A stretch of 64,000 bases of DNA from Chitinophagales bacterium (GTDB lineage Bacteria > Bacteroidota > Bacteroidia > Chitinophagales > Chitinophagaceae): positions 1 to 64,000 of the forward strand of contig JAATFP010000049.1 in assembly GCA_015655125.1 (NCBI GenBank), given 5' to 3'. How positions within the stretch are numbered: the first letter of the stretch is position 1; each line of letters starts with the position of its first letter. The position numbers were made by a program, and so were the translations under genes. Below are positions 45,162 to 63,190 of the stretch, in pieces. The notes beneath the pieces are model-generated. The model worked only from the letters and a program-made list of their open reading frames with translations, was not told the origin of the DNA and made no database searches.

Positions 45162-45327
45162 ATAAAATTAACGTGTTATGCTATTTAGATTGTAAATTTT
45201 ACTCTGCAACCGTCTTCGACAAGCTCAGACTGACAGCTTCCTGTCATGTTGAGCTTGTCGAAACATAGTTTGAATGCGAATTTTTTATTCAGGTGTATTT
45301 GCCATAGCACAACATGTTAAATTTTAT
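45162..45327. repeat. Long hairpin repeat element, copy 8 (about 166 bp, about 23-bp imperfect terminal inverted repeats)
   Basis: ATAAAATTAACGTGTTATGCTAT ... ATAGCACAACATGTTAAATTTTAT; core CCGTCTTCGACAAGCTCAGACTGACAG-CTTC-CTGTCATGTTGAGCTTGTCGAAACATAG. Confidence 0.8.
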
Positions 45328-46991: not shown

Positions 46992-49900
46992 GTGAAATCT
47001 GCTATTGATTGCCATAAAACCACTCTTTCATTGCCCGGCTTGCTTACATATATTTCTAAACCATCTGGCAAAAGGCGATCACACCTGTGTTTGTTTTATT
47101 TTATTGTACAGTTTTGTTGTTCTTCAATTGCTGCCAAAGCTGAAAACAATGATCCTTTCTTTTTGCAGCATTACGATAACAGGAACGGCCTTTCCAATAG
47201 TTCCATCAATTATATATATAAGGATGCGAACAATCTTTTGTGGGTTGCTACGTGGGACGGGTTGAACATGTACGATGGCAACAATTTTCACGTGTTCAAT
47301 TATAATAAGGACAACGATTTCAAAAGTATCGGAAGTAACGTGATCCAGCAGGTGTCGGAAGACAGGCGCGGTAATATCTGGATCACCACCATCGAGGGCA
47401 TTTCGCGGTATGAAAAATTCAGCGGAAAGTTCTATAATTATTTTTACAATCAATACCAGCGAAGTCGCGTAAGCGAACAGGAATATGCGCTCGCAACCGA
47501 CACTGCGGGGAACGTATTTTGTTTCAGTCAAAAGAACGGGCTGTCTTCTTATGACTTCGCAGCCGACAGTTTCAGGGCATGCAACATTCCGCAGCAGCAG
47601 GCGCGTATATCGAGGATGCTTTTTGATGATGCCAACCGGCTTTGGATATTAAATACAACCGGGAGGCTCAGCGCCTTTGAAAGGGCCGGGGCAGGCTTTA
47701 CATCGCTTCCGGGGAACAGCGATGAGCAAGCGGTTTCAAATTTCTTTAAAGTGGGTACCAGGCTTTTTTATACAACTTCCGACAACAGGTTGTTCCAGGT
47801 GACCGAAGCAAGGAGGGCCGGCGATTTTCTCTTGCAGTTGCCGCATGCAGTGAGCGCCGTTACTTTTTACAAAGGACACTACCTGTTTGCGTGGACCACC
47901 AAGGGGTATGGCATCTACAACGCTTCATTTCAGAAAGATGATTTTTTAAAACAGGAATCCGATCAGCAGCAGGATATAAAAGTTACCTCGTTTTCGTTGG
48001 GAAGCGAAGATATTTTGTGGTATGGAACTGATGGAAATGGTATCATCAAGGTATACCCAAAAACGAAATCTTTCGGAACCATTTCTACGTCCGATAATGG
48101 TATGCCATACAACCGCTCTGTGCGGGCTTTTTGCGAAGCAAATGGCGACCTTTGGATAGGCACTAAAGGGAGCGGCATCATGGCCATCAAAGATTTCTGG
48201 CAGGAAAAAGCAACATATGATAAATCATATTTCTCCTTTCCTGCAACGATTGATAACAACGCCGTTTATTCTTTAACGAAATGCAGCAATGAACTGATCT
48301 ATATCGGCAGTGATGCAAAAGGAATCGGTGCCTATGATATCAGGGCAAAACATTTTTTTAAATGGGCCGATATCAAAGGAAGTGCGGCCTGCCCGGAATT
48401 TGGTTCGGTATATGCGATCAGGCAGGACACGGATCAATCGCTGTGGCTCGGCACCAGCGGTTACGGATTGGTGCATTTAAAAATAAACAAGGATGCTTCC
48501 GGATCATTGTCTGTTTCATTCATAGAAAGATTTTTGTTTGACAACAGTGATAAAGGTCCGGCCAACGATATTATCTACGCGTTGGCCGATGGCGACCGTG
48601 ACCAACTCTGGATCGGGTGCCGGTATGGCGGTCTAAGCCTGCTCGATAAGAAAACGAAACGTTTCAGGACTTTCAAGGCTTTTACTTATGATGGAAGTCT
48701 TTCCAATAATGATGTGTTGTCGCTTTTTAAAGACAACAGGAATCGTTTGTGGATCGGCACGAGCTACGGACTGAATTGGCTGGATGAACAGGAGGCCTTA
48801 AAAAACGCCCCTATTTTTCAAAAGATTACAACAACAAACGGGCTACCGAATAATACTATTCACGCAATCGAACAGGATAGCGTAGGACAGCTGTGGGTGA
48901 GTACCAACAAGGGTTTGGCTAAAGTGAACCAGGATGGAAAAGTGTCGTACTATCAGCAGGCAGATGGTTTGCAGAGCAATGAATTTTGCGACGGTGCCGT
49001 GTGGAAAGATAAAAATGGTGCATTGTTTTTCGGTGGAACGTATGGCTTCAATCATTTTCTTCCACAGGATATCCGCCGTTCCGCATGGCAGCCCAATTTA
49101 TTATTGTCCAATATCCTGGTTGGCGGAAAAGATATTGCCGGCAACGGTTATAACGTACTCGATTCCGCGTCTGCGCAGCCATTGCATTTTACCATCAACC
49201 GAAAGGATAATTTTTTTGAACTCGACATCCGGGCCGTCAGTTTTTTAAACGCTGAAAAATGCGAATATGCATATTTACTGGAAGGATATGACAAGGTTTG
49301 GCGCTTCAGCGGCACTTCCGGTAAGATCGTTTATAACAATTTATTGCCCGGCACTTATTCGCTTCGCGTGAAATGGAGCAATGGCGAAGGTTCTTGGTCG
49401 GCAGAAACCAAGCTCCTGACATTGGAGGTACAACAGTATTTCTGGTTGCGCTGGTATGCATTGTTATTTTACGCACTGGTGATTTCAGCCGTTATTTATA
49501 TTATATATAGTTACCGGAAAAATAAAGAAGCGATCCGTCACCAGTTGGAAGTGGAACATTTGCTGCGCGAAAAAGACGAAGCCGTTCATGAGAGCCGCAT
49601 TGGCTTTTTTACAAACATTGCGCATGAACTTCAGACGCCACTTACGCTTATCATGGGATCTGCAGAAAGATTCATGGACAAGGACCGGTTGTCGCGTGAA
49701 AAAGAAAAACCATTCTTCTTATCAATGATTCACCAACAGGCATCGAGATTGACCTATCTCGTTCACCAGTTGCTGGAATTCCGGAAAGGCGAAGCCGGCT
49801 TTTTTAAAAATCAATATGCATACCTGGATATTTCCGAGCTGTTGGAAAACCTTGCGGAACCTTTTGTTCCGATCAGCGAAAAAAAGCAATTGGAATACGA

Positions 49901-51200
49901 GATCAATATTGCGCAGGGTATCAGCGGCTGGATCGATAAGGATAAACTGGAAAAGATCATCTTTAATTTACTGTCAAACGCCTTTAAACATTCTGAAAAA
50001 AATGAGCAGGTCGTCTTTGCTGCCGTTGCACATGCGCAAACCAGGCAAGTGGAGATCACGGTGATTAATTCAGGTACCGATCTTCCGGCTGAAGTACTTG
50101 AACATTTATTCGATCAGTTTTACGTTGCCCGCCCGGGGGCAGCAGGTACGGATCAGTTTGGCACCGGCATAGGGCTTGCGTTTACGCGGCAATTGGTGAA
50201 CCTGCTTAATGGCCAGATCAGCGCAACCAGTGAAAACGGGTACATTACTTTCAAGGTACTGTTGCCACTCAATGCTGCATCTACAAATATTGTAACGGAG
50301 GACGGGTCTGAAGCCTTAACCGGCCAGCCTTCTTATTTATACAAGGCAGTTACTTCTGTTCCCGAACCTGTTTCGGCAGTCTCGGCAGTTGACAACAACA
50401 AATATGCGATCATTGAAAATTTGCAGCATGATAACCGGAAGAATATCCTTATCGTGGAAGATGATGCCAATATCCGGTTTCTTCTAAAGGATATATTTAA
50501 AGATGAATATATTATTTATGAAGCCGTGGATGGAGCAAAGGCGCTCGAAATGCTGGAAAAATTCATCCCGGATCTGTTGATCTGCGATGTGATGATGCCG
50601 AATATGAACGGGCTGGAACTTTGCAATCGCATTAAGAATGCACCCGCTACCTGCCAGGTACCCGTTATTATGTTGTCGGCGCGTGATAGTGAGGATCATC
50701 ATATGGAGGGATACGAAGTGGGAGCGGATGCGTATATATCAAAGCCGTTTCATACCGAACATCTGCGGCTACGCGTGAGAAAAATGCTTGAATACAGGCA
50801 AAAAATGTTGAATGTATTTAAAACGGGGCATCAACCGGATAATATTGATGATGCCGGTCTTGCCGAGGACGATAAGGCATTTTTAGTGAAGCTTGTAAAA
50901 GTGATCGGGGAACATATTGCCGAGCCGGAACTCAATGCCGTCTTTCTTGAAAAAGAATTCAGCATGAGTAAAATGCAGCTGTACCGTAAAATGAAAACAA
51001 TGACGGGCATGACACCAGGCGAATTCATCCGGCACGTACGGTTGAAACAGGCCGCTGATCTTTTGGTGACCACCAGCCTGAACGTGACCGAAATATTTTA
51101 CAGGACAGGTTTCAATAACCAGTCGTATTTCTTCCGCGAATTTAAAAAACGGTTCGGCTGCGCACCGAATGAGTACCGCAATAACCAGGCAGCAATTTGA
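46992..51200 (+). CDS. Hybrid two-component system regulator: periplasmic beta-propeller/Y_Y_Y sensor, histidine kinase, REC, AraC DNA-binding domain
   Basis: 1402 aa; WVATWDGLNMYDG-type propeller repeats, NIAHELQTPLTL H-box, ILIVEDDANIRFLL...LICDVMMPNMNG REC, AraC HTH at C-terminus. Confidence 0.95.
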   Translation: MKSAIDCHKTTLSLPGLLTYISKPSGKRRSHLCLFYFIVQFCCSSIAAKAENNDPFFLQHYDNRNGLSNSSINYIYKDANNLLWVATWDGLNMYDGNNFHVFNYNKDNDFKSIGSNVIQQVSEDRRGNIWITTIEGISRYEKFSGKFYNYFYNQYQRSRVSEQEYALATDTAGNVFCFSQKNGLSSYDFAADSFRACNIPQQQARISRMLFDDANRLWILNTTGRLSAFERAGAGFTSLPGNSDEQAVSNFFKVGTRLFYTTSDNRLFQVTEARRAGDFLLQLPHAVSAVTFYKGHYLFAWTTKGYGIYNASFQKDDFLKQESDQQQDIKVTSFSLGSEDILWYGTDGNGIIKVYPKTKSFGTISTSDNGMPYNRSVRAFCEANGDLWIGTKGSGIMAIKDFWQEKATYDKSYFSFPATIDNNAVYSLTKCSNELIYIGSDAKGIGAYDIRAKHFFKWADIKGSAACPEFGSVYAIRQDTDQSLWLGTSGYGLVHLKINKDASGSLSVSFIERFLFDNSDKGPANDIIYALADGDRDQLWIGCRYGGLSLLDKKTKRFRTFKAFTYDGSLSNNDVLSLFKDNRNRLWIGTSYGLNWLDEQEALKNAPIFQKITTTNGLPNNTIHAIEQDSVGQLWVSTNKGLAKVNQDGKVSYYQQADGLQSNEFCDGAVWKDKNGALFFGGTYGFNHFLPQDIRRSAWQPNLLLSNILVGGKDIAGNGYNVLDSASAQPLHFTINRKDNFFELDIRAVSFLNAEKCEYAYLLEGYDKVWRFSGTSGKIVYNNLLPGTYSLRVKWSNGEGSWSAETKLLTLEVQQYFWLRWYALLFYALVISAVIYIIYSYRKNKEAIRHQLEVEHLLREKDEAVHESRIGFFTNIAHELQTPLTLIMGSAERFMDKDRLSREKEKPFFLSMIHQQASRLTYLVHQLLEFRKGEAGFFKNQYAYLDISELLENLAEPFVPISEKKQLEYEINIAQGISGWIDKDKLEKIIFNLLSNAFKHSEKNEQVVFAAVAHAQTRQVEITVINSGTDLPAEVLEHLFDQFYVARPGAAGTDQFGTGIGLAFTRQLVNLLNGQISATSENGYITFKVLLPLNAASTNIVTEDGSEALTGQPSYLYKAVTSVPEPVSAVSAVDNNKYAIIENLQHDNRKNILIVEDDANIRFLLKDIFKDEYIIYEAVDGAKALEMLEKFIPDLLICDVMMPNMNGLELCNRIKNAPATCQVPVIMLSARDSEDHHMEGYEVGADAYISKPFHTEHLRLRVRKMLEYRQKMLNVFKTGHQPDNIDDAGLAEDDKAFLVKLVKVIGEHIAEPELNAVFLEKEFSMSKMQLYRKMKTMTGMTPGEFIRHVRLKQAADLLVTTSLNVTEIFYRTGFNNQSYFFREFKKRFGCAPNEYRNNQAAI

Positions 51201-51231: not shown

Positions 51232-51290
51232 GCTGTCTTCGGCAAGCCCAGAATGACAGCACCCTGTGATGTTGAGCCTGTCGAAACATA
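51232..51290. repeat. Intergenic hairpin repeat, copy 9
   Basis: GCTGTCTTCGGCAAGCCCAGAATGACAGCACCCTGTGATGTTGAGCCTGTCGAAACATA. Confidence 0.75.
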
Positions 51291-51376: not shown

Positions 51377-51416
51377 AAATGTTACCATAGTATACTAAAA
51401 TGTAACCATAGTGTAC
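51377..51416. promoter_or_regulatory. Tandem direct repeat upstream of susC: candidate operator for the hybrid regulator
   Basis: AAATGTTACCATAGTATAC (51377-51395) and AAATGTAACCATAGTGTAC (51398-51416); 17/19 identical, 21-bp period. Confidence 0.65.
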
Positions 51417-51673
51417 AATGAAATTTCCGATGCGGTGTAATTTTCGGTCCTCAATTGCCGCATATGAACGCTACTAAAACGAACTTGCCGTGCCGTTTAA
51501 CAACGGGCCACACTTGTAATTATTTCAACATCTATGTTCCTGACGGTACCGGTTAGCCGGATGCCTGCAGCGAATTTTTCTCCGTCCTCTTCCGAACTGC
51601 TTTTTACCAACACCAAACAGTCATCATTATCCTGGTGCAAACACAGGCACTTTCATTTAAAAAAGATTGCATT

Positions 51674-54600
51674 ATGAAAAAAACTATTAACGAATCTCTC
51701 CGCTTAATTTTAAAACCGTCTGAAAAGGTTTTAAAAATGGCCGTTTTCTTTCTCGCATTTGCATTGATGCATTATACGGCGCGGGCACAGACGGAGGTCA
51801 TATCCGGGAAGGTTATCAACGCTGCCGGTGAGGCGGTTTCGGGGGTAAGCGTCAATGTCAAAGGTTCATCTGTTGGCACAAGTACCGATATTTCCGGGAA
51901 CTTCAGCATTTCTGCAGCCAAAACGGATGTTCTTGAGATCAGCTCCGTAGGATTTATTTCCCAGGACGTTGCGGTGGCAGGCCGTTCTTCCATTTCAATA
52001 ACGCTGCAACGTGGCGTAAATACACTCAACGATGTAGTGGTAGTGGGATATACCACGCAAAAAAAGAAAGATCTTACCGGCGCAGTTTCTACAGTTTCCA
52101 GTCGCGACATCAATGCTATACCTGTTGGCGGTGTAGATCAGATCCTGCAAGGTAAAGCGGCAGGTGTAACCATTACGCAGTCTACCGGTGCGCCCGGTGA
52201 AGGTGTTACAGTTCGGGTGCGCGGTACGGGAACGATCAATAACAACGATCCATTATATATAGTAGATGGAGTTCCTACAAAAGATGGTATTAATGAAATT
52301 TCTCCAAACGATATTGAAACAATCAGCGTTTTAAAAGATGCGGCATCAGCCTCTATTTATGGTGCGCGCGCATCCAATGGTGTGATCGTCATCACAACTA
52401 AAAAGGGGCGTGCGGGCAAACCAAGGCTGAGCCTGAATTTCTATGCAGGATCGCAAACGCCGGCCAATCTTATAAAAATGGCCAATACCGACCAATACAT
52501 CCAGGCATATAATATTGCCGCAACCAATGATGGTCGTCCTTTGATACCGCTATCTGCGCGCGATACATTGTCAAATACAAACTGGCAAAAGGAAGTGTTG
52601 AATTCGGCACCTATTCTTAACGCACAATTGTCACTAAGCGGCGGAAATGAAAATACCAGATACATTGTGTCTGGTGCATACTTCAGTCAGAAAGGTATGA
52701 TCGATAATTCTTCTACCGATCGTTTTAATCTCCGTACTTCTCTGACCAGCACCATCAACAAGATTTTTAAAGTTGGTACCAATGTAAATATCTCCACCGG
52801 AAATACGAAACAGGTATCAAGTTCCGGAGATGGCTTCGCAAGTGGCCAGGGCGGAAGTATTCTGCGTTATGCATTGTTTGCAACTCCGGCTTCCGGCGTG
52901 AGGTTCCCAACGGGCGCCTATGCCGGCCAGTATGTTGACAGGCCATATACATTGCCTATCGGACCGGGCGGGAGCCAGGTAAATGTATTTGGAGACGGTT
53001 TGAACCCGGTTGGTTTGGCTGCAAATGCGGATCGGAATTTTAAAAATTACTCATTGCTCGGTGATGCTTACGTAGAAGTGACGCCCATCGCGCATTTGAA
53101 ATTAAAATCGGATTTTGGTACAAATTTTATCATCACCGATTTTAAGCAATTTAAAAATACATGGGGAACCGATCGTCCGGGCGGGCATATAGAAAACAGT
53201 CCGAATGCCCTGTCACAGTACAATCTCAATAACTATAATTACAACTGGACGAATACGGCTACTTACGACTGGACGATCAACAAACACGCATTGAATTTTC
53301 TGGCCGGTACGGAGATCATTTATAATGAAACCAAACTGATTTCTGCGTCCAATTCAAATTTTCCAAATCAAAGTCCGGCTTTCCAATACCTGAACAACGG
53401 AACAAGCATTTCGCCTTCGGTTGGTGGTGATTTGTACAATTCTTCATTGTCTTCTGTTTTTGGAAGAGTAGATTATCAGTATGATGCTAAATATCTTGCT
53501 TCATTCAGTGTAAGAAGGGATGGCTCGTCAAGATTGGATCCGAGCAACAGGTGGGGGAATTTCTACTCCGGATCTGTTGGTTGGAGGATCGATAAAGAAA
53601 AATTTATGGCCAATATCAAGCCGGTCTCTTTGCTGAAATTAAGAGCAAGTCTTGGGCAGTTAGGAAACCAGGAGATCAGCAATTACGGTTACGCATCTTT
53701 GCTCGGTGCAAACGGCTACTATGCTTTCGGAAATACGGCAACACCTACTTACAGTATTTATGCTAAAGGTAATCCGAACGTGAAATGGGAAACCAGCACG
53801 ATCGCAGACATCGGTCTGGATCTTGGTCTCTTTAATGACGCGCTTAGCTTTACCGCTGATTATTACCATAAAAAAACTTCCGACCTTTTGGTGGCTCCGC
53901 CAAATCCAACAAGTGCCGGAACTGTTGCCGGTGCTGCTTATGAAAACAATGGTGAAATACTTAACACAGGTTTTGAATTTGATCTTTCTTATCGCAAACA
54001 GATCAACAAAGACTGGAGATTTGAAGTAGGGGCAAATCTTGCCACCGTTCACAATGAAGTTTTATCATTGTTGAATAGTCAGCCAATTCCCGGCGGACAA
54101 CTTGGTAACGGCGGCCAGTATATCACATCAACTGCTGTGGGCCATCCGATAGGTGAATTTTACATCCTGCAACAGGAGGGTGTTTTCCAGAATGCATTGG
54201 ATGTGTTTACACATGCCAACCAGGGAGCGAATATCGTTCCCGGCGACATCAAATTTAAAGATGTAAACGGCGACGGTAAGATTGACCAGAATGACAGGGT
54301 GTATGCTGGCAGCCCGATTCCGAAACTGAACTACGGATTCACAGGAAATGTGGCATTCAAACAATTTGATCTGAATATCTTCTTCCAGGGAGTAAGCGGT
54401 AATAAGATCTACAACCAGGTTGGACGTGATATCGAAGGTTTCTATCGTCCGTTCAATCTTACCGTTCGCGCACTTGAAAATGCATGGAGCGGCGAAGGTT
54501 CAACCAACAAATATGCACGCCTGTCGTATACCGGCGGCCAGAACAATACACAGGCTTCCACCCGCTTTCTGGAAGACGGGTCTTACCTGCGATTGAAAAA

Positions 54601-54841
54601 TGTGCAGATCGGATACTCCTTCAGCAGCGCGTTGATCAACCGTTTGAAAGTGTCGTCTATGCGTTTATTTGTTAGTGGGCAAAACCTGCTGACATTCACC
54701 AAATATTCAGGACTTGATCCTGAGATGGCTACCAGCGCAGATGCTGCGGCTCAGGGAGATGGTGTAAAGGGTGTGGGCATCGATTGGGGAACTTATCCAT
54801 CTGCACGCACTTTCACTGCCGGTGTAAACATTAATTTCTAA
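51674..54841 (+). CDS. SusC/RagA-family TonB-linked outer-membrane transporter
   Basis: VISGKVINAAGEAVSGVSVNVKGSSVGTSTDISGNFSI, LNDVVVVGYTTQKKKDLTGAVSTV, YIVDGVPTKDGINEISPNDIETISVLKDAASASIYGARASNGVIVITTKKG. Confidence 0.97.
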   Translation: MKKTINESLRLILKPSEKVLKMAVFFLAFALMHYTARAQTEVISGKVINAAGEAVSGVSVNVKGSSVGTSTDISGNFSISAAKTDVLEISSVGFISQDVAVAGRSSISITLQRGVNTLNDVVVVGYTTQKKKDLTGAVSTVSSRDINAIPVGGVDQILQGKAAGVTITQSTGAPGEGVTVRVRGTGTINNNDPLYIVDGVPTKDGINEISPNDIETISVLKDAASASIYGARASNGVIVITTKKGRAGKPRLSLNFYAGSQTPANLIKMANTDQYIQAYNIAATNDGRPLIPLSARDTLSNTNWQKEVLNSAPILNAQLSLSGGNENTRYIVSGAYFSQKGMIDNSSTDRFNLRTSLTSTINKIFKVGTNVNISTGNTKQVSSSGDGFASGQGGSILRYALFATPASGVRFPTGAYAGQYVDRPYTLPIGPGGSQVNVFGDGLNPVGLAANADRNFKNYSLLGDAYVEVTPIAHLKLKSDFGTNFIITDFKQFKNTWGTDRPGGHIENSPNALSQYNLNNYNYNWTNTATYDWTINKHALNFLAGTEIIYNETKLISASNSNFPNQSPAFQYLNNGTSISPSVGGDLYNSSLSSVFGRVDYQYDAKYLASFSVRRDGSSRLDPSNRWGNFYSGSVGWRIDKEKFMANIKPVSLLKLRASLGQLGNQEISNYGYASLLGANGYYAFGNTATPTYSIYAKGNPNVKWETSTIADIGLDLGLFNDALSFTADYYHKKTSDLLVAPPNPTSAGTVAGAAYENNGEILNTGFEFDLSYRKQINKDWRFEVGANLATVHNEVLSLLNSQPIPGGQLGNGGQYITSTAVGHPIGEFYILQQEGVFQNALDVFTHANQGANIVPGDIKFKDVNGDGKIDQNDRVYAGSPIPKLNYGFTGNVAFKQFDLNIFFQGVSGNKIYNQVGRDIEGFYRPFNLTVRALENAWSGEGSTNKYARLSYTGGQNNTQASTRFLEDGSYLRLKNVQIGYSFSSALINRLKVSSMRLFVSGQNLLTFTKYSGLDPEMATSADAAAQGDGVKGVGIDWGTYPSARTFTAGVNINF

Positions 54842-54859
54842 AATATTAAATAGTATACA

Positions 54860-56374
54860 ATGCGAACTAAAAATAAATTCATCTTTCTTGTCGGCGCTGT
54901 CGCGATCATTGCGGGCACCGGTTGTAAAAAGATCCTCGACCAGGAAGTGCAAGGCAGTTATACGCCTGGAAATTTCTTTACATCAGATGCGAATGCTTTG
55001 CTCGCAACCAATGCCGCATACAAATCGCTTTCCTTTAATTCCGGTGGTTCAAACGCCATCTGGGTGTTGGGCGACATAGCTTCCGATGATGCTATCAAAG
55101 GTGTGAACGATGGTGACCAGGCGGACTTCAGCGCCGTTGACCAGTTCAATATCTTGCCTACCAATTCCGCAGTAGAAGCAGTCTGGAAGAATTATTATAA
55201 CGGCGTTTTCCAGTGCAACGTTGTGTTGGATGGTTTGGCTGCCGGTAATACCGCAGTAAGTGAAGCTACTGCAAAATCGTGCATTGCGCAAGCGAAGTTT
55301 TTGCGTGCATATTATTATTTTGTTTTAACTACTGCATACGGCAAAATTCCTTTGCATCTGCGCGTAGAAACGGCCATTGAGGCACAATCGCCAGCGATCA
55401 GCCAGGATAGTATCTTTGCACAGATTGAAAAAGATTGCACGGAAGCTGCTGCTGACCTTCCCACGCCTTCCGCAACGGAGTTTGGTCGTGCTTCAAAAGG
55501 TGCAGCATTGGCTCTGCTGGCAAAAACATATTTATTTCATACAAGTCTTACAAATCATTATCAGTTAGCTGCAACAACTGCTCAAACCGTTACTACGCTT
55601 GGCTATAATCTAACTCAACGTTATTACGATAATTTTAGTTCTGCCACCAAAAACAATACGGAGGTGATCCTCACCGTAAATCAGCTGGCAGGTACGCTTG
55701 GTCTTGGAAACGAATTGAACGCGTGGTTTGCACCACGAAGCATTGGCGGATATGGATTCTTTTATCCGACGCAAAGCCTGGTAGACAATTTTGAAAAAGC
55801 CACAGGTGGCGAAGTAGATCCGCGCCTGGATTATTCACTGGCTCGTACAGGTCATAATTATTTCGATGTACCATTCGATCCATCCTGGAGCACAACTGGC
55901 TATATTACGAAGAAGATGGTTCAACCGTTATCAGAAGTTCCAACTTCGATCAAAAATGTTGGTACCGTCAACTACGAACCATTGCGTTTAGCCGATATCC
56001 TGTTGGTGCAGGCTGAAGCCTTGAACGAAGGCGGACATTCCGGGGATGCGCTGGCGCCGTTGAACGCCGTACGCAAACGGGCGCGTGAATCCTATTTGTA
56101 TGATAACACCTTACCAGGTTTTGGTACGGTTCCCGTCGGTTTATTGCCTGATATCACTATCACCGACCAGGCTCAGCTGCGCGATATTATCCGCCGTGAG
56201 AGGAGGTCTGAACTGGCATTGGAATTTCATCGTTTCTTTGACGTGATCCGCTACGGTGAAACTTATGCCAACCCGGCTTTATTGCCTGGAGCGCCTAATT
56301 TTAATTATACGAATAACAAATTTTTCCCGCTTCCGCAGAGCGAAAGAGATGCAAATCCAAATTTGTTCAGGTAA
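54860..56374 (+). CDS. SusD/RagB-family surface lipoprotein
   Basis: Lipobox IAGTGCKK; AKFLRAYYYFVLTTAYGKIPL; RRERRSELALEFHRFFDVIRYGE. Confidence 0.96.
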   Translation: MRTKNKFIFLVGAVAIIAGTGCKKILDQEVQGSYTPGNFFTSDANALLATNAAYKSLSFNSGGSNAIWVLGDIASDDAIKGVNDGDQADFSAVDQFNILPTNSAVEAVWKNYYNGVFQCNVVLDGLAAGNTAVSEATAKSCIAQAKFLRAYYYFVLTTAYGKIPLHLRVETAIEAQSPAISQDSIFAQIEKDCTEAAADLPTPSATEFGRASKGAALALLAKTYLFHTSLTNHYQLAATTAQTVTTLGYNLTQRYYDNFSSATKNNTEVILTVNQLAGTLGLGNELNAWFAPRSIGGYGFFYPTQSLVDNFEKATGGEVDPRLDYSLARTGHNYFDVPFDPSWSTTGYITKKMVQPLSEVPTSIKNVGTVNYEPLRLADILLVQAEALNEGGHSGDALAPLNAVRKRARESYLYDNTLPGFGTVPVGLLPDITITDQAQLRDIIRRERRSELALEFHRFFDVIRYGETYANPALLPGAPNFNYTNNKFFPLPQSERDANPNLFR

Positions 56375-56401: not shown

Positions 56402-57463
56402 ATGCGTATATCTAAAACTATTTTTCAATTAGCGGTGATCATTTCGCTGGCAACAGGTTTTGTAGCCTGTTCCAAAGATGACAACAATAACGATGCACCC
56501 GCATCTGATAAACTGGCATTGAAAGCAAAAATCGATTCGCTTACAAATGTATACAACACTACCGTGGAAGGATCGCATCCGGGCCAGTATGCAGTAGGGG
56601 CGCGTACAGCTTTGGATTCTGTTCTTAATCTTGCATTGCAGGTTTATAACGGCGGAAGTTACACACAAGTACAGGTAAACAATGCATTGCAGAACCTGAT
56701 CATCGCCGGGCAATTGTTTCAAACGAAATTATTGCAGGAAGTATCCGTGGCAAATCTCATGGCATTCTGGAAATTCAACGGCAATGCCAATGACTCATCC
56801 GGCCACAATAACAACGGAACTTTAAGTACAGGATTGATGGGAAGCAGCGCTACAACTGCAGTGGATGCCGGTGTATTGCCGCAGCTCGTAGCAGACAGGT
56901 TCGGGCGGGCAAACATGGCCTACGATTTTAATAATGCAGCGACCGTCGAAGTTCCGTACAGCGCAACGTTGAATCCCCAAAGCTTTACAATTTGCGTGTG
57001 GGTAAAAAGGCATACCACAAATGCCAACAATTACATCATTTCTCTTAATCGCTGGAACGGATTTAAGTTCCAGTTGCAGAGTGACAACTTCCCGTTTGTA
57101 ACTTTCCAGGATACTAATAATGGATATCATGATATCGATGATAATCCTGGTACGGTACCTCAGGATGTATGGACACATGTGGCTGTTTCGGTTACAAATG
57201 GTGCCGTTCGTTTTTATATCAACGGCAACATGACCAAGACTGTGAACGTTTCCGGAACTCCGATCACAGTCAATCCGCCAGTGAATATTTCTATCGGAAA
57301 TGAACTTCCAAAATCAGGTTATAACCTCACGGATGCCAGCAGCCCGAATTACTTTTACGGGGCAAGCTTCTTTGTAGGAAGCCTTGATGATATCCGTTTT
57401 TATAATTCGGTATTATCTGATGCGGAAGTGCTTTCTATTTACACTCAGGAAAAATCGCTATAA
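56402..57463 (+). CDS. LamG/concanavalin-like lipoprotein, putative surface glycan-binding protein
   Basis: Lipobox GFVACSKD; LMAFWKFNGNANDSSGHNNNGTLS...GSLDDIRFYNSVLSDAEVLSIY. Confidence 0.88.
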   Translation: MRISKTIFQLAVIISLATGFVACSKDDNNNDAPASDKLALKAKIDSLTNVYNTTVEGSHPGQYAVGARTALDSVLNLALQVYNGGSYTQVQVNNALQNLIIAGQLFQTKLLQEVSVANLMAFWKFNGNANDSSGHNNNGTLSTGLMGSSATTAVDAGVLPQLVADRFGRANMAYDFNNAATVEVPYSATLNPQSFTICVWVKRHTTNANNYIISLNRWNGFKFQLQSDNFPFVTFQDTNNGYHDIDDNPGTVPQDVWTHVAVSVTNGAVRFYINGNMTKTVNVSGTPITVNPPVNISIGNELPKSGYNLTDASSPNYFYGASFFVGSLDDIRFYNSVLSDAEVLSIYTQEKSL

Positions 57464-57501: not shown

Positions 57502-58833
57502 ATGATACATCTCAGAAAATGTGTTGCAGGAATTCTTTGCCTGTCACTTTTTACCGCCTGTTCCAAGAGCAGCGACAGCGTGGATACCACACAGCCGCCG
57601 GTAACGCCACCGGTAGTAACGCCGGTGACTGATACTGCTCTTACAAAAACGGCACATCTCGAAAAACTAAGTGTACCTGTTTCTTTCGTTAATGGTGAAA
57701 AGGCCATCGGGGTATACATTTATTCCGATGCGCCTTTCTATACGCCCGTGGAGGCCACCGGAGAAGGGTTCACCTGCGTGGATGACGTGGCACGCGCCGC
57801 CTTGTATTACACCCGCAGTTATGCTTTCGCAACCGATACAGCTATACAAAACAGGGCATTTGGAATGATAAAGTTTGTATTGAACATGCAGTCGGACAAT
57901 GGATATTTCTATAATTTTTTGCAAACCGACGGCTCGATCAATCAATACGGCATCACCAGCGTCAATCAGCCAAAATGGTGGAGCTGGCGCGCATTGCAGG
58001 TTTTAGCCGAAGGCGTTAACGTTGTTCGCACAAAAGATGCAACACTTGCGGGTCGTATGGGCGCGGCTGTAAATAAATTGGTAGCTGCCATTAAAACAGA
58101 TCTTGTTGATCGTCCGCAGGTATTTTCACAAGTGGATGGAATCGACGTTCCGCAATGGTTGCCGGAAGGTGCCGACCAGGCGTCAACGCTGATATTGGGG
58201 CTTGTTCCGTATTGCCGTAATTCCGGTGATGCCGTTATTAGAACTTTCATACAAAAACTGGCCGATGGTATTGTGGCGTCGCAATCGGGTAGTGCCACAC
58301 AATTTCCTTATGGCGCATTTCTGAGCGCTTCTACTACCTGGCACGCGTATGGGAACGACCAGGCCCATGCATTATTTACAGCGGGTGCCTTTTTAAACGA
58401 TGCGTCGTATGTGGCAAGTGCCAAAAAAGAAGTGGATAATTTTTACCCGTGGTTACTTACGAGCGGAATGAAGAGTTCGTTCCAGGTGAAATTGGTAAAC
58501 AATGTACTCACAGGATATAACCAAAAAGATTTCGAGCAGATTGCGTATGGTATCCGCCCGATGGTATTTGCAGCCATTGATGCGTATGCTGTTACCGGTG
58601 ATGAAAGGTATTCGGACATGGCAGGACACCTGGGTGCTTGGTTGCTCGGAAACAATGTGGCTTCGGAAAATATGTATTCCGTTTCTACAGGAATATGTTT
58701 TGATGCAATCGCCGCGCCGGCAAACGTAAATAAAAATTCCGGCGCAGAATCTACGGTGGAAGCTTTGCTCACGATGCAACAAATTACCAACTACACGACG
58801 GTACGTACCGCTTTGAACCGATACAAAAGGTAA
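57502..58833 (+). CDS. Lipoprotein, putative (alpha/alpha)-toroid glycosidase-like enzyme of unknown specificity
   Basis: Lipobox LFTACSKS; GEGFTCVDDVARAALYYTRSY and helical WWSWRALQVLAEG segments. Confidence 0.6.
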   Translation: MIHLRKCVAGILCLSLFTACSKSSDSVDTTQPPVTPPVVTPVTDTALTKTAHLEKLSVPVSFVNGEKAIGVYIYSDAPFYTPVEATGEGFTCVDDVARAALYYTRSYAFATDTAIQNRAFGMIKFVLNMQSDNGYFYNFLQTDGSINQYGITSVNQPKWWSWRALQVLAEGVNVVRTKDATLAGRMGAAVNKLVAAIKTDLVDRPQVFSQVDGIDVPQWLPEGADQASTLILGLVPYCRNSGDAVIRTFIQKLADGIVASQSGSATQFPYGAFLSASTTWHAYGNDQAHALFTAGAFLNDASYVASAKKEVDNFYPWLLTSGMKSSFQVKLVNNVLTGYNQKDFEQIAYGIRPMVFAAIDAYAVTGDERYSDMAGHLGAWLLGNNVASENMYSVSTGICFDAIAAPANVNKNSGAESTVEALLTMQQITNYTTVRTALNRYKR

Positions 58834-58864: not shown

Positions 58865-59929
58865 ATGAAAGATATCGCAAAACGTTTTGAAGGTAATCCC
58901 TTGCTGTCACCCGCTGATCTTAAACCCAGTATCGACGGACTTGAAATAGCCTGTTTGCTCAATCCGGGCGTTTTCGAATACGATGGAAAAACATGGCTGC
59001 TGGTGCGTGTAGCAGAAAGGCCAAAGCAAACGGACGATGTTATTTCTTTTCCTATTCTCACCAAAAGCGGCGGAATGGAGATCATGAAAATCCCGGCCAA
59101 CGATCCCGAACTGGATGCAAGCGATGCGCGCGTGATCAATTACAAGGGGCTTGATTATCTCACCACGTTATCGCACTTACGATTGTTATGCAGCGATGAT
59201 GGTAAGAATTTTTATCAACCCGAAGGATATCCTTTGTTAACCGGAGAAGGCATTTTGCAAACATTTGGAATTGAAGATTGCCGCGTTACCAGGCTCGAAG
59301 AAAAGTATCACCTGACTTTTACCGCCGTGTCGGATAATGGCGTGGGCGTTGGACTGCGGACGACAACGGACTGGAAAAATTTTGACTCGCATGGAATGAT
59401 GTTGCCGCCGCACAATAAGGATTGTGCCATTTTTGAGGAAAAGATCAATGGAAAATATTACGCGCTTCACCGTCCGAGCAGCGTAGATATCGGTGGAAAT
59501 TTTATCTGGATAGCGTCCTCCCCTGATGGTATTCATTGGGGCGATCACCGCTGCATCATCAAAACGAGAAAGGATAAATGGGACAGCAAAAGGGTAGGTG
59601 CGGGCGCTGCGCCGATTAAAACGGATAAAGGATGGCTCGAGATCTATCATGGTGCCAATGCAGATCATCAATATTGTTTAGGTGCATTTCTTATGGATAT
59701 TGATGATCCTACAAAAGTGATCGCGCGAACAAATGATGCGATCATGATACCGGAAGCTCCTTACGAGCTGACAGGTTTTTTTGGAAATGTTGTATTTACA
59801 AACGGCCATGTTGTTCAACCCGATGGTGATACCATTACCGTTTATTATGGTGCCTCGGATGAATTCGTTTGCGGGGCAGATTTTTCGCTGAAGGATATTT
59901 TTTCATTATTAAAATCCGATCATGTCTAA
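58865..59929 (+). CDS. Glycoside hydrolase family 130 (beta-mannoside phosphorylase/mannosidase family)
   Basis: FEGNPLLSPADLKPSIDGLEIACLLNPGVFEYDGKTWLLVRVAER; GIEDCRVTRLEEKYHLTFTAVS; GAGAAPIKTDKGWLEIYHGA; no signal peptide. Confidence 0.92.
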   Translation: MKDIAKRFEGNPLLSPADLKPSIDGLEIACLLNPGVFEYDGKTWLLVRVAERPKQTDDVISFPILTKSGGMEIMKIPANDPELDASDARVINYKGLDYLTTLSHLRLLCSDDGKNFYQPEGYPLLTGEGILQTFGIEDCRVTRLEEKYHLTFTAVSDNGVGVGLRTTTDWKNFDSHGMMLPPHNKDCAIFEEKINGKYYALHRPSSVDIGGNFIWIASSPDGIHWGDHRCIIKTRKDKWDSKRVGAGAAPIKTDKGWLEIYHGANADHQYCLGAFLMDIDDPTKVIARTNDAIMIPEAPYELTGFFGNVVFTNGHVVQPDGDTITVYYGASDEFVCGADFSLKDIFSLLKSDHV

Positions 59930-61217
59930 CAAATTACAAATAGAGATTGACCATTTTAAAAGTCAGCCGCGTAACTTTCGCATACTTATTTTTGTGAACA
60001 TGATCTATGCACTCGTGCTGCCGGTGATCGATACATTCATGGCTGCCTATATTATGCGAAGCACACATGGCGACCTTACTAAAGTGGTAATCTACCAACT
60101 GACAATCTACACCGGAATTCCACTTACGTTTTTATTGAATGGTTTTTTATTACAGCATTTTAATATCCGTAAGTTATATTCTGCCGGAATGATGCTCAGC
60201 GGCATTTCGATGATTTATATGATGTCGTTGTCGGAATTAAATGTAGTGGGCCTGGCAGTGGCAGGATTTATCATGGGACTTAGTTTCGGATTTTACTGGT
60301 CTAATCGCGACGTGCTTGCGCTCGCCATCACAAATGATTCCAACAGGAACTATTATTACGGGATGGAAACTTTGTTTTATACGATCATTGCCGTGGTGGT
60401 ACCCATTGCCATAGGTTTTTTTATAGATTCAAAAACAACTCCTGCATCCAAACAATCGGCATATGTAATGATCACCGGTGTAGTGTTTGGAATAACGGTA
60501 TTGGCGTCTGTTGTGTGTTTCAGGGGAACCTTTCAAAATCCCGCACAGAAAAAATATGTCTTCTTCAGGTTCCATCCACTTTGGTATAAATTACTTACAC
60601 TCGCATCCTTGAAGGGCCTGGCACAAGGTTTTTTAGTAACCGCGCCCGCCATGTTGATATTGAAATTTTTTGGTAACGAAGGAGCCCTGGGATCCGCAAC
60701 ATCGATAGGTGCGGTGATTGCAGCTATCATCATGTATGTGCTGGGGCGTATTTCGAAGCCGTCTGACAGGATAAAGATATTTGCAGCCGGATTATTATTG
60801 TTCGCAGTCGGCGCAGCCATCAACGGAGTTTTATACAGCCAGCTCGGTGTGGTGATATTTATTTTGATGTTACTGATTGCCAAGCCCCTGATGGATCTTG
60901 CTTATTTTCCGATTCAGTTCCAGGTGATAGATATAGTTTCCAGGATCGAAAAACGAAGTGAGTTTGCTTACATCCTCAATCATGAAGCAGGGTTATATAT
61001 TGGCCGGTTCCTTGGTGCTGCAACATTCCTGGTAATGGCCAAATATGGTTCTGCCGATATCGCATTGCGATATGCTGTGGTAATCATCGGCGTTTTGCAA
61101 TTGTGTTCTATTTTTGTGGGCAGGAAAATTATTGCACAAGGAAAAATAATCATGCCGGAATCGGAAAGGCAATCGAAAGAAGAAGTAGTGGGGAAAGTGG
61201 CTGAAGTGATAGCCTAG
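59922..61217 (+). CDS. MFS transporter, overlapping the GH130 gene by 8 nt
   Basis: 431 aa polytopic protein; GLSFGFYWSNRDVLALAITNDSNRNYYYGMET. Confidence 0.85.
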   Translation: MSNKLQIEIDHFKSQPRNFRILIFVNMIYALVLPVIDTFMAAYIMRSTHGDLTKVVIYQLTIYTGIPLTFLLNGFLLQHFNIRKLYSAGMMLSGISMIYMMSLSELNVVGLAVAGFIMGLSFGFYWSNRDVLALAITNDSNRNYYYGMETLFYTIIAVVVPIAIGFFIDSKTTPASKQSAYVMITGVVFGITVLASVVCFRGTFQNPAQKKYVFFRFHPLWYKLLTLASLKGLAQGFLVTAPAMLILKFFGNEGALGSATSIGAVIAAIIMYVLGRISKPSDRIKIFAAGLLLFAVGAAINGVLYSQLGVVIFILMLLIAKPLMDLAYFPIQFQVIDIVSRIEKRSEFAYILNHEAGLYIGRFLGAATFLVMAKYGSADIALRYAVVIIGVLQLCSIFVGRKIIAQGKIIMPESERQSKEEVVGKVAEVIA

Positions 61218-61329: not shown

Positions 61330-63027
61330 ATGAAGAAATTCAATATCATCTTACTCTTTCTTCTTTCCACCGCTGCTTTTGCGCAGCCCGGCCAAAAAAA
61401 TATTCCGCGCGTGGATGCGATGGCCGATGTGCCAAAACCCTTGAAAATAATAGATTATAGGGCGCTCGCTTTAAAATTTGACAGAACCATTTATGATTTT
61501 AACGCAAAGGGGAAATTCTGGCCAATGATCTGGATAGACAGCAGCAACAGGAACTTTGCGCAACCCGTTGCCGGTATCTATACTGCAGTAGGGGACGTGA
61601 GACAGGGGCCGCAAAACAATAAAGGTATTTTCCACGAAGCCCTTGCTACCATGGGAGCCGTGATGGGTGCAAGCCTGGTAGGAATTGATAAAAGCAAACA
61701 AAAGTATAATTACGTAGGCATGTTGAAAAACTATTTCAACAAGGAAACGGGTTGGAACATCATGATGAACAATACCTGTCCCGAAGTAGCGTTGCTTGGC
61801 GGCGGTTATGGACGCGACTGGTGGTACGATGTGTATCCGAATGTATTGTTTTATGCCATCTGCGATATGTATCCCGATGAACCCGGTTTTACGGATATCG
61901 CTAAAACGATTGCAGATAAATTTTACGCCGCAGATTCCATTCTAAATGGAAATTATGAATGGTCGTTTTTTGATTACGGAAAGATGGCTCCTATGAAAAA
62001 TAATATCTGTACGCAACCGGATGTTGCTGCGGGCCACGCGTGGGTGTTGTATGCTGCATACAAAAAATTCGGCGATGATCGCTATTTGAAGGGAGCGATA
62101 AGTGCACTAAATGCTTTGCAGGCACAATCCAAAAATCCAACCTATGAAGTATTGATGCCATTTGGTGCCTATTTAAGTGCAAGAATAAATGCGGAACAGC
62201 ACAAGCAATACGATATGAACAAGATGCTCAGCTGGAGCTTCGACGGAACGCCGCTATGCCGCGAAGGGTGGGGCGTGCTGGCAGGAAACTGGAACGGGAT
62301 CGATATTTCGGGGATCGTGGGAAGTACCGTTGATCATGGAGGCTATGGCTTCCTGATGAACACTTATGATTTTGCATGGCCGCTTGTGCCGATGGTTCGT
62401 TATGATAAATGGTATGCAAAAGCAATCGGGAAATGGATGCTCAATGCAGCCAATGCCGCAAGATTTTTTTACCCGGCTTATATGCCAAGGGAACACCAGG
62501 TGATACCCGAACTTGCCAAGGTTACCAAAGGTGTAATCGGTTATGAAGGAATGATCAAACAATCTTCGTATAAAAAATATGAACACCTGAAAGGGCCGGT
62601 GGCACAGGGTGATGGCCCGCTATGGGTGGCAGACAAAAATCCTCCGGAATCACAATTCAGTGTTTATGGAAGCGGGCATGTGGGGATATTCGGAAGCATT
62701 ATCAAGACAACGAATGTTAGGGGAATTTTGCAACTCGACCTGCTGGCTACAGATTTTTATCACGCAAAAGCTTATCCGTCTTATTTATATTACAACCCTT
62801 TTAAAAATAATAAAACTATTTCTGTAAATGTTGGTGCTAAAAGCACAGATGTTTATAATACGCTTACATCGTCTTTCATCGCCCGCAACGTATCGGGAAA
62901 AATAAATGTTTCTTTGGCCCCGGAAAACGCAGCTGTATTGATCTTTACACCACCGTCCGGCAAACAGAGTTATGAAGGGAAGCAATTGTTGATAGATGGT
63001 ATTGTGGTTGACTACAGCGCAAAATAG
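61330..63027 (+). CDS. Secreted protein of unknown family, putative helical-toroid glycosidase
   Basis: Signal peptide MKKFNIILLFLLSTAAFAQ; 565 aa with WNIMMNNTCPEVALLGGGYGRDWWYDVYPNVLFYAICDMYPDE and WGVLAGNWNGIDISGIVGSTVDHGGYGFLMNTYDFAWPLVPMVRYDKWYAKAIGKWML. Confidence 0.6.
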   Translation: MKKFNIILLFLLSTAAFAQPGQKNIPRVDAMADVPKPLKIIDYRALALKFDRTIYDFNAKGKFWPMIWIDSSNRNFAQPVAGIYTAVGDVRQGPQNNKGIFHEALATMGAVMGASLVGIDKSKQKYNYVGMLKNYFNKETGWNIMMNNTCPEVALLGGGYGRDWWYDVYPNVLFYAICDMYPDEPGFTDIAKTIADKFYAADSILNGNYEWSFFDYGKMAPMKNNICTQPDVAAGHAWVLYAAYKKFGDDRYLKGAISALNALQAQSKNPTYEVLMPFGAYLSARINAEQHKQYDMNKMLSWSFDGTPLCREGWGVLAGNWNGIDISGIVGSTVDHGGYGFLMNTYDFAWPLVPMVRYDKWYAKAIGKWMLNAANAARFFYPAYMPREHQVIPELAKVTKGVIGYEGMIKQSSYKKYEHLKGPVAQGDGPLWVADKNPPESQFSVYGSGHVGIFGSIIKTTNVRGILQLDLLATDFYHAKAYPSYLYYNPFKNNKTISVNVGAKSTDVYNTLTSSFIARNVSGKINVSLAPENAAVLIFTPPSGKQSYEGKQLLIDGIVVDYSAK

Positions 63028-63045: not shown

Positions 63046-63190
63046 AGGTTACTGCCCATCAAAAATAAATCCGGATAATAATTCGCTCTTGTGTATGTTT
63101 CGACAAGCTCAACATGACAGAAAGCTGTCAGTCTGAGCTTGTCGAAGACCGATTGCATAGCAAATTCAGATCTAATAGCACAACGCTTTA
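63046..63190. repeat. Long hairpin repeat element, copy 10 (opposite orientation to copy 8)
   Basis: ATGTTTCGACAAGCTCAACATGACAGAAAGCTGTCAGTCTGAGCTTGTCGAAGACCGATTGCATAGCAAATTCAGATCTAATAGCACAACGC. Confidence 0.75.

Follow-up and report, generated by a model that had tools for sequence, protein, structure and literature searches.

A 21-bp-phased tandem repeat upstream of susC is a predicted operator of the neighbouring HTCS in a Chitinophagales bacterium

We found that two direct repeats upstream of a susC gene in a Chitinophagales bacterium (Chitinophagaceae) are very probably the operator of the hybrid two-component system regulator (HTCS) that is encoded next to them. The window, that is the whole stretch of 64,000 nucleotides that was analysed, had previously been annotated from its letters, and this first-pass annotation had proposed the repeats as a binding site for the upstream regulator. 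Comparison with related genomes lends this prediction support. We regard the HTCS as the probable binder because the repeats track the HTCS gene, are absent from susCD loci that do not carry it and covary with the HTCS DNA-binding domain; the 21-bp period and the spacing between the repeats and a -7 box point the same way.

Results

The tandem repeat and the HTCS gene upstream of it

The two half-sites are located on the forward strand at 51377-51395 (distal, AAATGTTACCATAGTATAC) and at 51398-51416 (proximal, AAATGTAACCATAGTGTAC). They are directly oriented, identical at 17 of 19 positions and exactly 21 bp or two helix turns apart from start to start, and 258 bp lie between the end of the repeat at 51416 and the susC ATG at 51674. 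Position, identity, period and distance to susC had all been given correctly by the first-pass annotation. When the window was scanned for the half-site with up to three mismatches, just these two places were returned (0.02 expected). We shuffled the 473-bp intergenic region 3000 times with dinucleotide frequencies retained. No shuffle reached at least 17/19 at period 21, and two did so when any period from 19 to 60 was accepted. In the search of the genome for further repeat pairs that had been suggested earlier, a relaxed pattern of two half-sites had a single exact match in 3.75 Mb, which is the pair upstream of susC. Neither the half-site pattern nor the relaxed pair pattern revealed a second operator pair in this genome, the remaining matches having three mismatches and not exceeding the control rate.

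The proposed binder is encoded directly upstream of the repeats (46992-51200, forward strand). It had been described as a hybrid kinase with a C-terminal AraC domain, and Pfam bore this out. A Reg_prop propeller and a Y_Y_Y sensor, HisKA, HATPase_c, a Response_reg receiver and a C-terminal AraC-type HTH (HTH_18) are all found above the Pfam cut-off on one polypeptide, as is characteristic of an HTCS. The solved structure nearest to its DNA-binding domain is PDB 12aw, a 'hybrid two-component system protein'. No other locus in the same genome matched kinase, receiver and HTH together over its length, and the other Y_Y_Y proteins of the genome are open frames of 982-1030 residues, too short for an HTCS. 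The protein is apparently the sole HTCS of its genome.

The receiver of this HTCS carries CQVP at the place of the S/CHIP motif, which is the typical, not the universal, contact motif between receiver and DNA-binding domain. The D and K of the S/CHIP-DK motif appear to be kept (placed by the published residue distance of 39 on the 12aw alignment), and about ten of the 25 HTCS orthologues have Q for the H of the contact motif. According to PMC11253607, control by phosphorylation is loosened when the S/CHIP motif deviates. Because of CQVP and this reported effect, the switch of the window HTCS may be less than strictly dependent on phosphorylation.

The repeats are conserved with orthologues of the HTCS

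Searching 399 genomes of the same family yielded 24 further HTCS orthologues (42-67% identical), and with the window's own protein the set comprised 25 orthologues (42-100% identical) from 13 genera, counting that of the window. For scoring we used a matrix of 42 positions, i.e. two halves of 21 with the period fixed, in a leave-one-out manner. In 23 of the 25 orthologues the tandem motif was found no more than 620 bp downstream of the HTCS stop, usually before susC and with 15-48 bits, counts that are not independent since the orthologues share descent. As a control, no match above 5.9 bits was obtained at these loci on the opposite strand or in the preceding sequence. Two HTCS orthologues had no downstream motif (L069, L083), and no SusC match was found adjoining the HTCS in either of them. 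When periods of 20, 21 and 22 were allowed, every orthologue in which the motif was detected had it with period 21 at the conserved position behind the HTCS gene. Merging the half-sites gave approximately TTGTNACYATAGTACAGT with ATAGTACA as its best conserved part.

A search of 395 genomes of the class added orthologues from two other families, which were kept out of the matrix. In L093, where the HTCS is 48% identical, a 21-bp repeat scored 32 bits, and in L094 (36% identical) a 21-bp repeat of AAATAGTGTACACTATT scored 12 bits. Each half-site of L094 (about 1390-1440) is itself palindromic (ATAGTGTACACTAT), with the 21-bp period kept.

Mean pairwise identity was 62% for the operator, 55% for the -7 box described below and 26-29% for the flanks upstream, between and downstream of these elements; operator and -7 box are thus the sole elements conserved in register. 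Operator similarity increased with the similarity of the DNA-binding domains, with a rank correlation of 0.56 that was not matched by any of 2000 permutations and is in part due to shared ancestry.

A -7 box at a fixed distance suggests activation from a class II position

The predicted -7 box of the window is TAATTTTC (51438-51445, forward strand), which agrees with the consensus TAnnTTTG at 5 of 6 positions and starts at an offset of 61 from the operator start. TAnnTTTG is the -7 box of Bacteroides (PMC7366714) and the flavobacterial sigma-A box located at -12 to -5 (PMC9723704). A box with at least 5/6 matches was present at an offset of 61 or 62 in 20 of 23 orthologues, and in 16 of 17 after near-copies had been thinned; shuffled sequences gave a maximum of 5/17 at any offset. 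L093 carries a perfect box, TATATTTG, at offset 62. Based on the position of TAATTTTC and the published placement of the box at -12 to -5, we predict a transcription start near 51450, which puts the half-sites at -73/-55 and -52/-34. A start upstream of the repeats, named in the first-pass annotation as an observation that would speak against an operator, is made unlikely by the conserved -7 box downstream of them.

With the start placed in this way, the proximal half-site (-52 to -34) abuts the -35/-33 region as expected for an araI1-araI2-like arrangement, and nearly all orthologues share this predicted end at about -34. We found no conserved TTTG near -33 at that position across the orthologues, which fits activator dependence; the -33 motif is not universal among Bacteroidota (PMC7366714). 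Activation from a class II position is therefore likely, as judged from the predicted promoter layout. Where HTCS sites lie with respect to the transcription start is not stated in PMC10994844, PMC6874557 or PMC11501099.

We considered whether the HTCS might bind the repeats but mainly repress, or might activate from elsewhere while another factor uses the -7 box. Some HTCSs do repress, for instance BT2391 (cited in PMC11253607), whose receiver contact residues deviate, and those of the window HTCS deviate too (CQVP). However, a repressor has no need of a fixed spacing, and the constant distance to the -7 box, the missing conserved -33 box and a proximal half-site ending at about -34 are what one would expect of an activator that stands in for -33 contacts. 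We therefore consider such a role of the HTCS unlikely.

susCD loci that do not carry the HTCS lack the repeats

Fifteen loci possess orthologous susC/susD and readable upstream DNA and have no orthologous HTCS (L044-L047, L049-L054, L057, L058, L060-L062). None of them carried the motif, the best score being 6.2 bits, and the motif was present in all three HTCS-bearing susCD orthologues (the window, L055 and L059). L043 and L048/L056 were excluded from the count because their sequence ends at the susC start. In L049 and L057, both among the fifteen, the HTCS or kinase relatives present are all distant, with identities of 31% and 21%, respectively.

The regulator beside susC was looked at in three of the fifteen loci. 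In L051 and L053 an ECF sigma factor and a FecR anti-sigma factor are encoded beside susC, and SusC carries an STN domain; in L052 a LacI-type regulator is found beside susC. Pfam detected no STN domain on the SusC of the window. In these three loci the regulator has apparently been replaced at a conserved SusC/SusD transporter.

These comparisons bear on the identity of the binder. Sequence alone names none, and any AraC-family dimer would suit direct repeats of 21 bp, so the repeats might in principle serve another DNA-binding regulator. Nevertheless, the motif accompanies the HTCS gene in 13 genera and in two more families, orthologous susCD loci under other regulators do not have it, and it covaries with the DNA-binding domain of the HTCS; we hold it to be very improbable that a protein other than the HTCS is the cognate binder.

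REP-like elements of the genome very probably do not account for the repeats

The genome contains REP-like inverted repeats of the form TTCGACAAGCTCA..TGAGCTTGTCGAA, the loops of which vary. Strict pairs of this form number eight in the genome, and the window harbours such repeats at 45215-45262 and 63099-63146. A degenerate inverted repeat resembling these pairs lies between the HTCS stop and the operator, outside the latter (51233-51290, no strand assigned). Its predicted fold is a long hairpin that is not clearly better than those of shuffles (z -1.1), and it is possibly a 3' end element of the HTCS gene.

A lone near-copy of the half-site exists elsewhere in the genome, at C67:15571-15633 (loci L003 and L037; match at C67:15596). 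The exact match covers 17 bases, TGTTACCATAGTATACT, and is single, with no partner half-site. It occupies the loop of a REP-like inverted repeat that separates two convergent open frames, which is not a promoter position. This copy represents capture by a REP element or coincidence.

We also tried a REP-element origin for the tandem repeat itself. REP-like inverted repeats are common in the genome, the degenerate one ends 87 bp upstream of the operator and the sole near-match of the half-site elsewhere sits in a REP-like loop. The idea was rejected since the motif is absent from the seven other strict REP pairs and is conserved across genera. Chance similarity of the two half-sites is excluded by the shuffles, by conservation over orthologues that are 42-67% identical and by the fixed spacing to the -7 box, so that a chance repeat or a piece of a mobile element is barely conceivable. 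A function of the repeats in RNA as part of a leader element, which the predicted leader of 200-plus bases between start and susC ATG might suggest, is just as improbable, because a transcript from the conserved -7 box would begin downstream of the repeats and so not contain them.

The downstream genes and a beta-1,2-mannoside as possible inducer

The genes downstream of the operator are all on the forward strand. The first gene of the predicted regulated operon encodes a SusC-like TonB-dependent transporter (51674-54841, Pfam), followed by a SusD-like lipoprotein (54860-56374, Pfam) and a LamG-domain protein (Laminin_G_3; 56402-57463, Pfam) that is kept beside SusCD. Next come a relative of PDB 7tem, the putative exported protein YPO2471 (57502-58833, PDB match), a GH130 enzyme (58865-59929; Pfam, and PDB 9erg/9erh with E=1e-153), an MFS transporter (59922-61217, Pfam) and a conserved protein of 565 residues (61330-63027). 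The latter is 64-76% identical in the HTCS-bearing loci L055 and L059 (76% in the closest relative), had no significant match in Pfam or PDB and is a candidate new enzyme of the locus. In L055, the closest HTCS-bearing relative, gene order is as in the window except for the 7tem relative.

The GH130 enzyme is nearest to the mannoside synthase Uhgb_MS, whose structure was solved with a 1,2-beta-mannoside ligand; against NCBIfam NF050092 it reached 398 bits, which is under the cut-off of 550. Since it is closest to Uhgb_MS, our best guess for the inducer is a beta-1,2-mannoside.

Discussion

We propose that the periplasmic sensor domain of the HTCS binds an oligosaccharide, for which a beta-1,2-mannoside would be the best guess, upon which the dimeric kinase would phosphorylate its fused receiver, presuming that phosphorylation is part of the switch. 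Each AraC-type DNA-binding domain of the dimer would then occupy one half-site, the two lying on the same helix face and two turns apart. Given that the proximal half-site is predicted to end at about -34, the place of a -33 element, the bound HTCS would activate, presumably rather than repress, RNA polymerase at TAATTTTC, and susC-susD and the genes behind would be transcribed from a putative start near 51450.

A wider idea, which we put forward tentatively and with real reservations, is that HTCS gene, 21-bp operator and a -7 box at the fixed offset of 61/62 constitute one exchangeable module. This module would govern in some genera the same kind of SusC/SusD that in others is under ECF-sigma/FecR or LacI control. 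The fixed phasing would then mean that the HTCS acts as a class II activator in place of -33 contacts.

Much of the glycan use in Bacteroidota is under HTCS control, and the operators involved are for the most part predictions, made mainly for gut Bacteroides. The comparison of 23 orthologues adds a base-by-base definition of one predicted operator and its distance to the -7 box, for a group outside the 2013 study discussed below. The resulting rule, a 21-bp repeat with a -7 box at an offset of 61/62 bases, is usable to locate other HTCS operators and transcription starts and to test activator geometry. Our searches of open papers turned up no earlier description of this half-site, no HTCS operator from this family and no constant distance between operator and -7 box.

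How does the site compare to known systems? At araI1-araI2 of E. coli araBAD, AraC binds two direct half-sites that are 21 bp apart, the downstream one touching the -35 region. The window operator resembles this arrangement in its two direct half-sites of 21-bp spacing, the proximal one of which is predicted to reach -35/-33. It differs in half-site sequence, in the TAnnTTTG promoter and in its regulator, which is a membrane-bound phosphorelay protein and not a soluble arabinose-binding one. Unlike for AraC, there is no sign of a distant looping site.

Among HTCSs, response-regulator fragments of BT4124 and BT4663 were found by gel shift to bind in vitro to the susCD promoters bt4114 and bt4662, which carry predicted sites (PMC11253607). 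The window has in common with them an HTCS response regulator at a susCD promoter, where binding is predicted; organism, ligand and the contact motif (CQVP instead of S/CHIP) are different. PMC12125979 was considered as an HTCS parallel and dropped, as it concerns a soluble XylR-like protein in Vibrio.

The closest likeness is to the HTCS motifs of B. thetaiotaomicron. Ravcheev et al. (2013, PMC3878776) predicted 16 such motifs, all of them direct repeats with an average distance of 21 bp, and proposed that HTCS dimers bind on one DNA face; the predicted motif of HTCS_Man consists of two 16-bp sites with a 5-bp spacer. Compared on architecture, the window agrees with these motifs: a tandem direct repeat of about 21 bp is situated in the promoter upstream of susC/susD, beside an AraC-type HTCS gene, and is kept with its orthologues. 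The window differs in that it comes from another family of Bacteroidota, the Chitinophagaceae, and in that the spacing to the -7 box was measured here. The HTCS operator architecture as a class was thus predicted as early as 2013 (PMC3878776), which the first-pass annotation had not mentioned, and the predicted site in the window is a well-supported further case of it.
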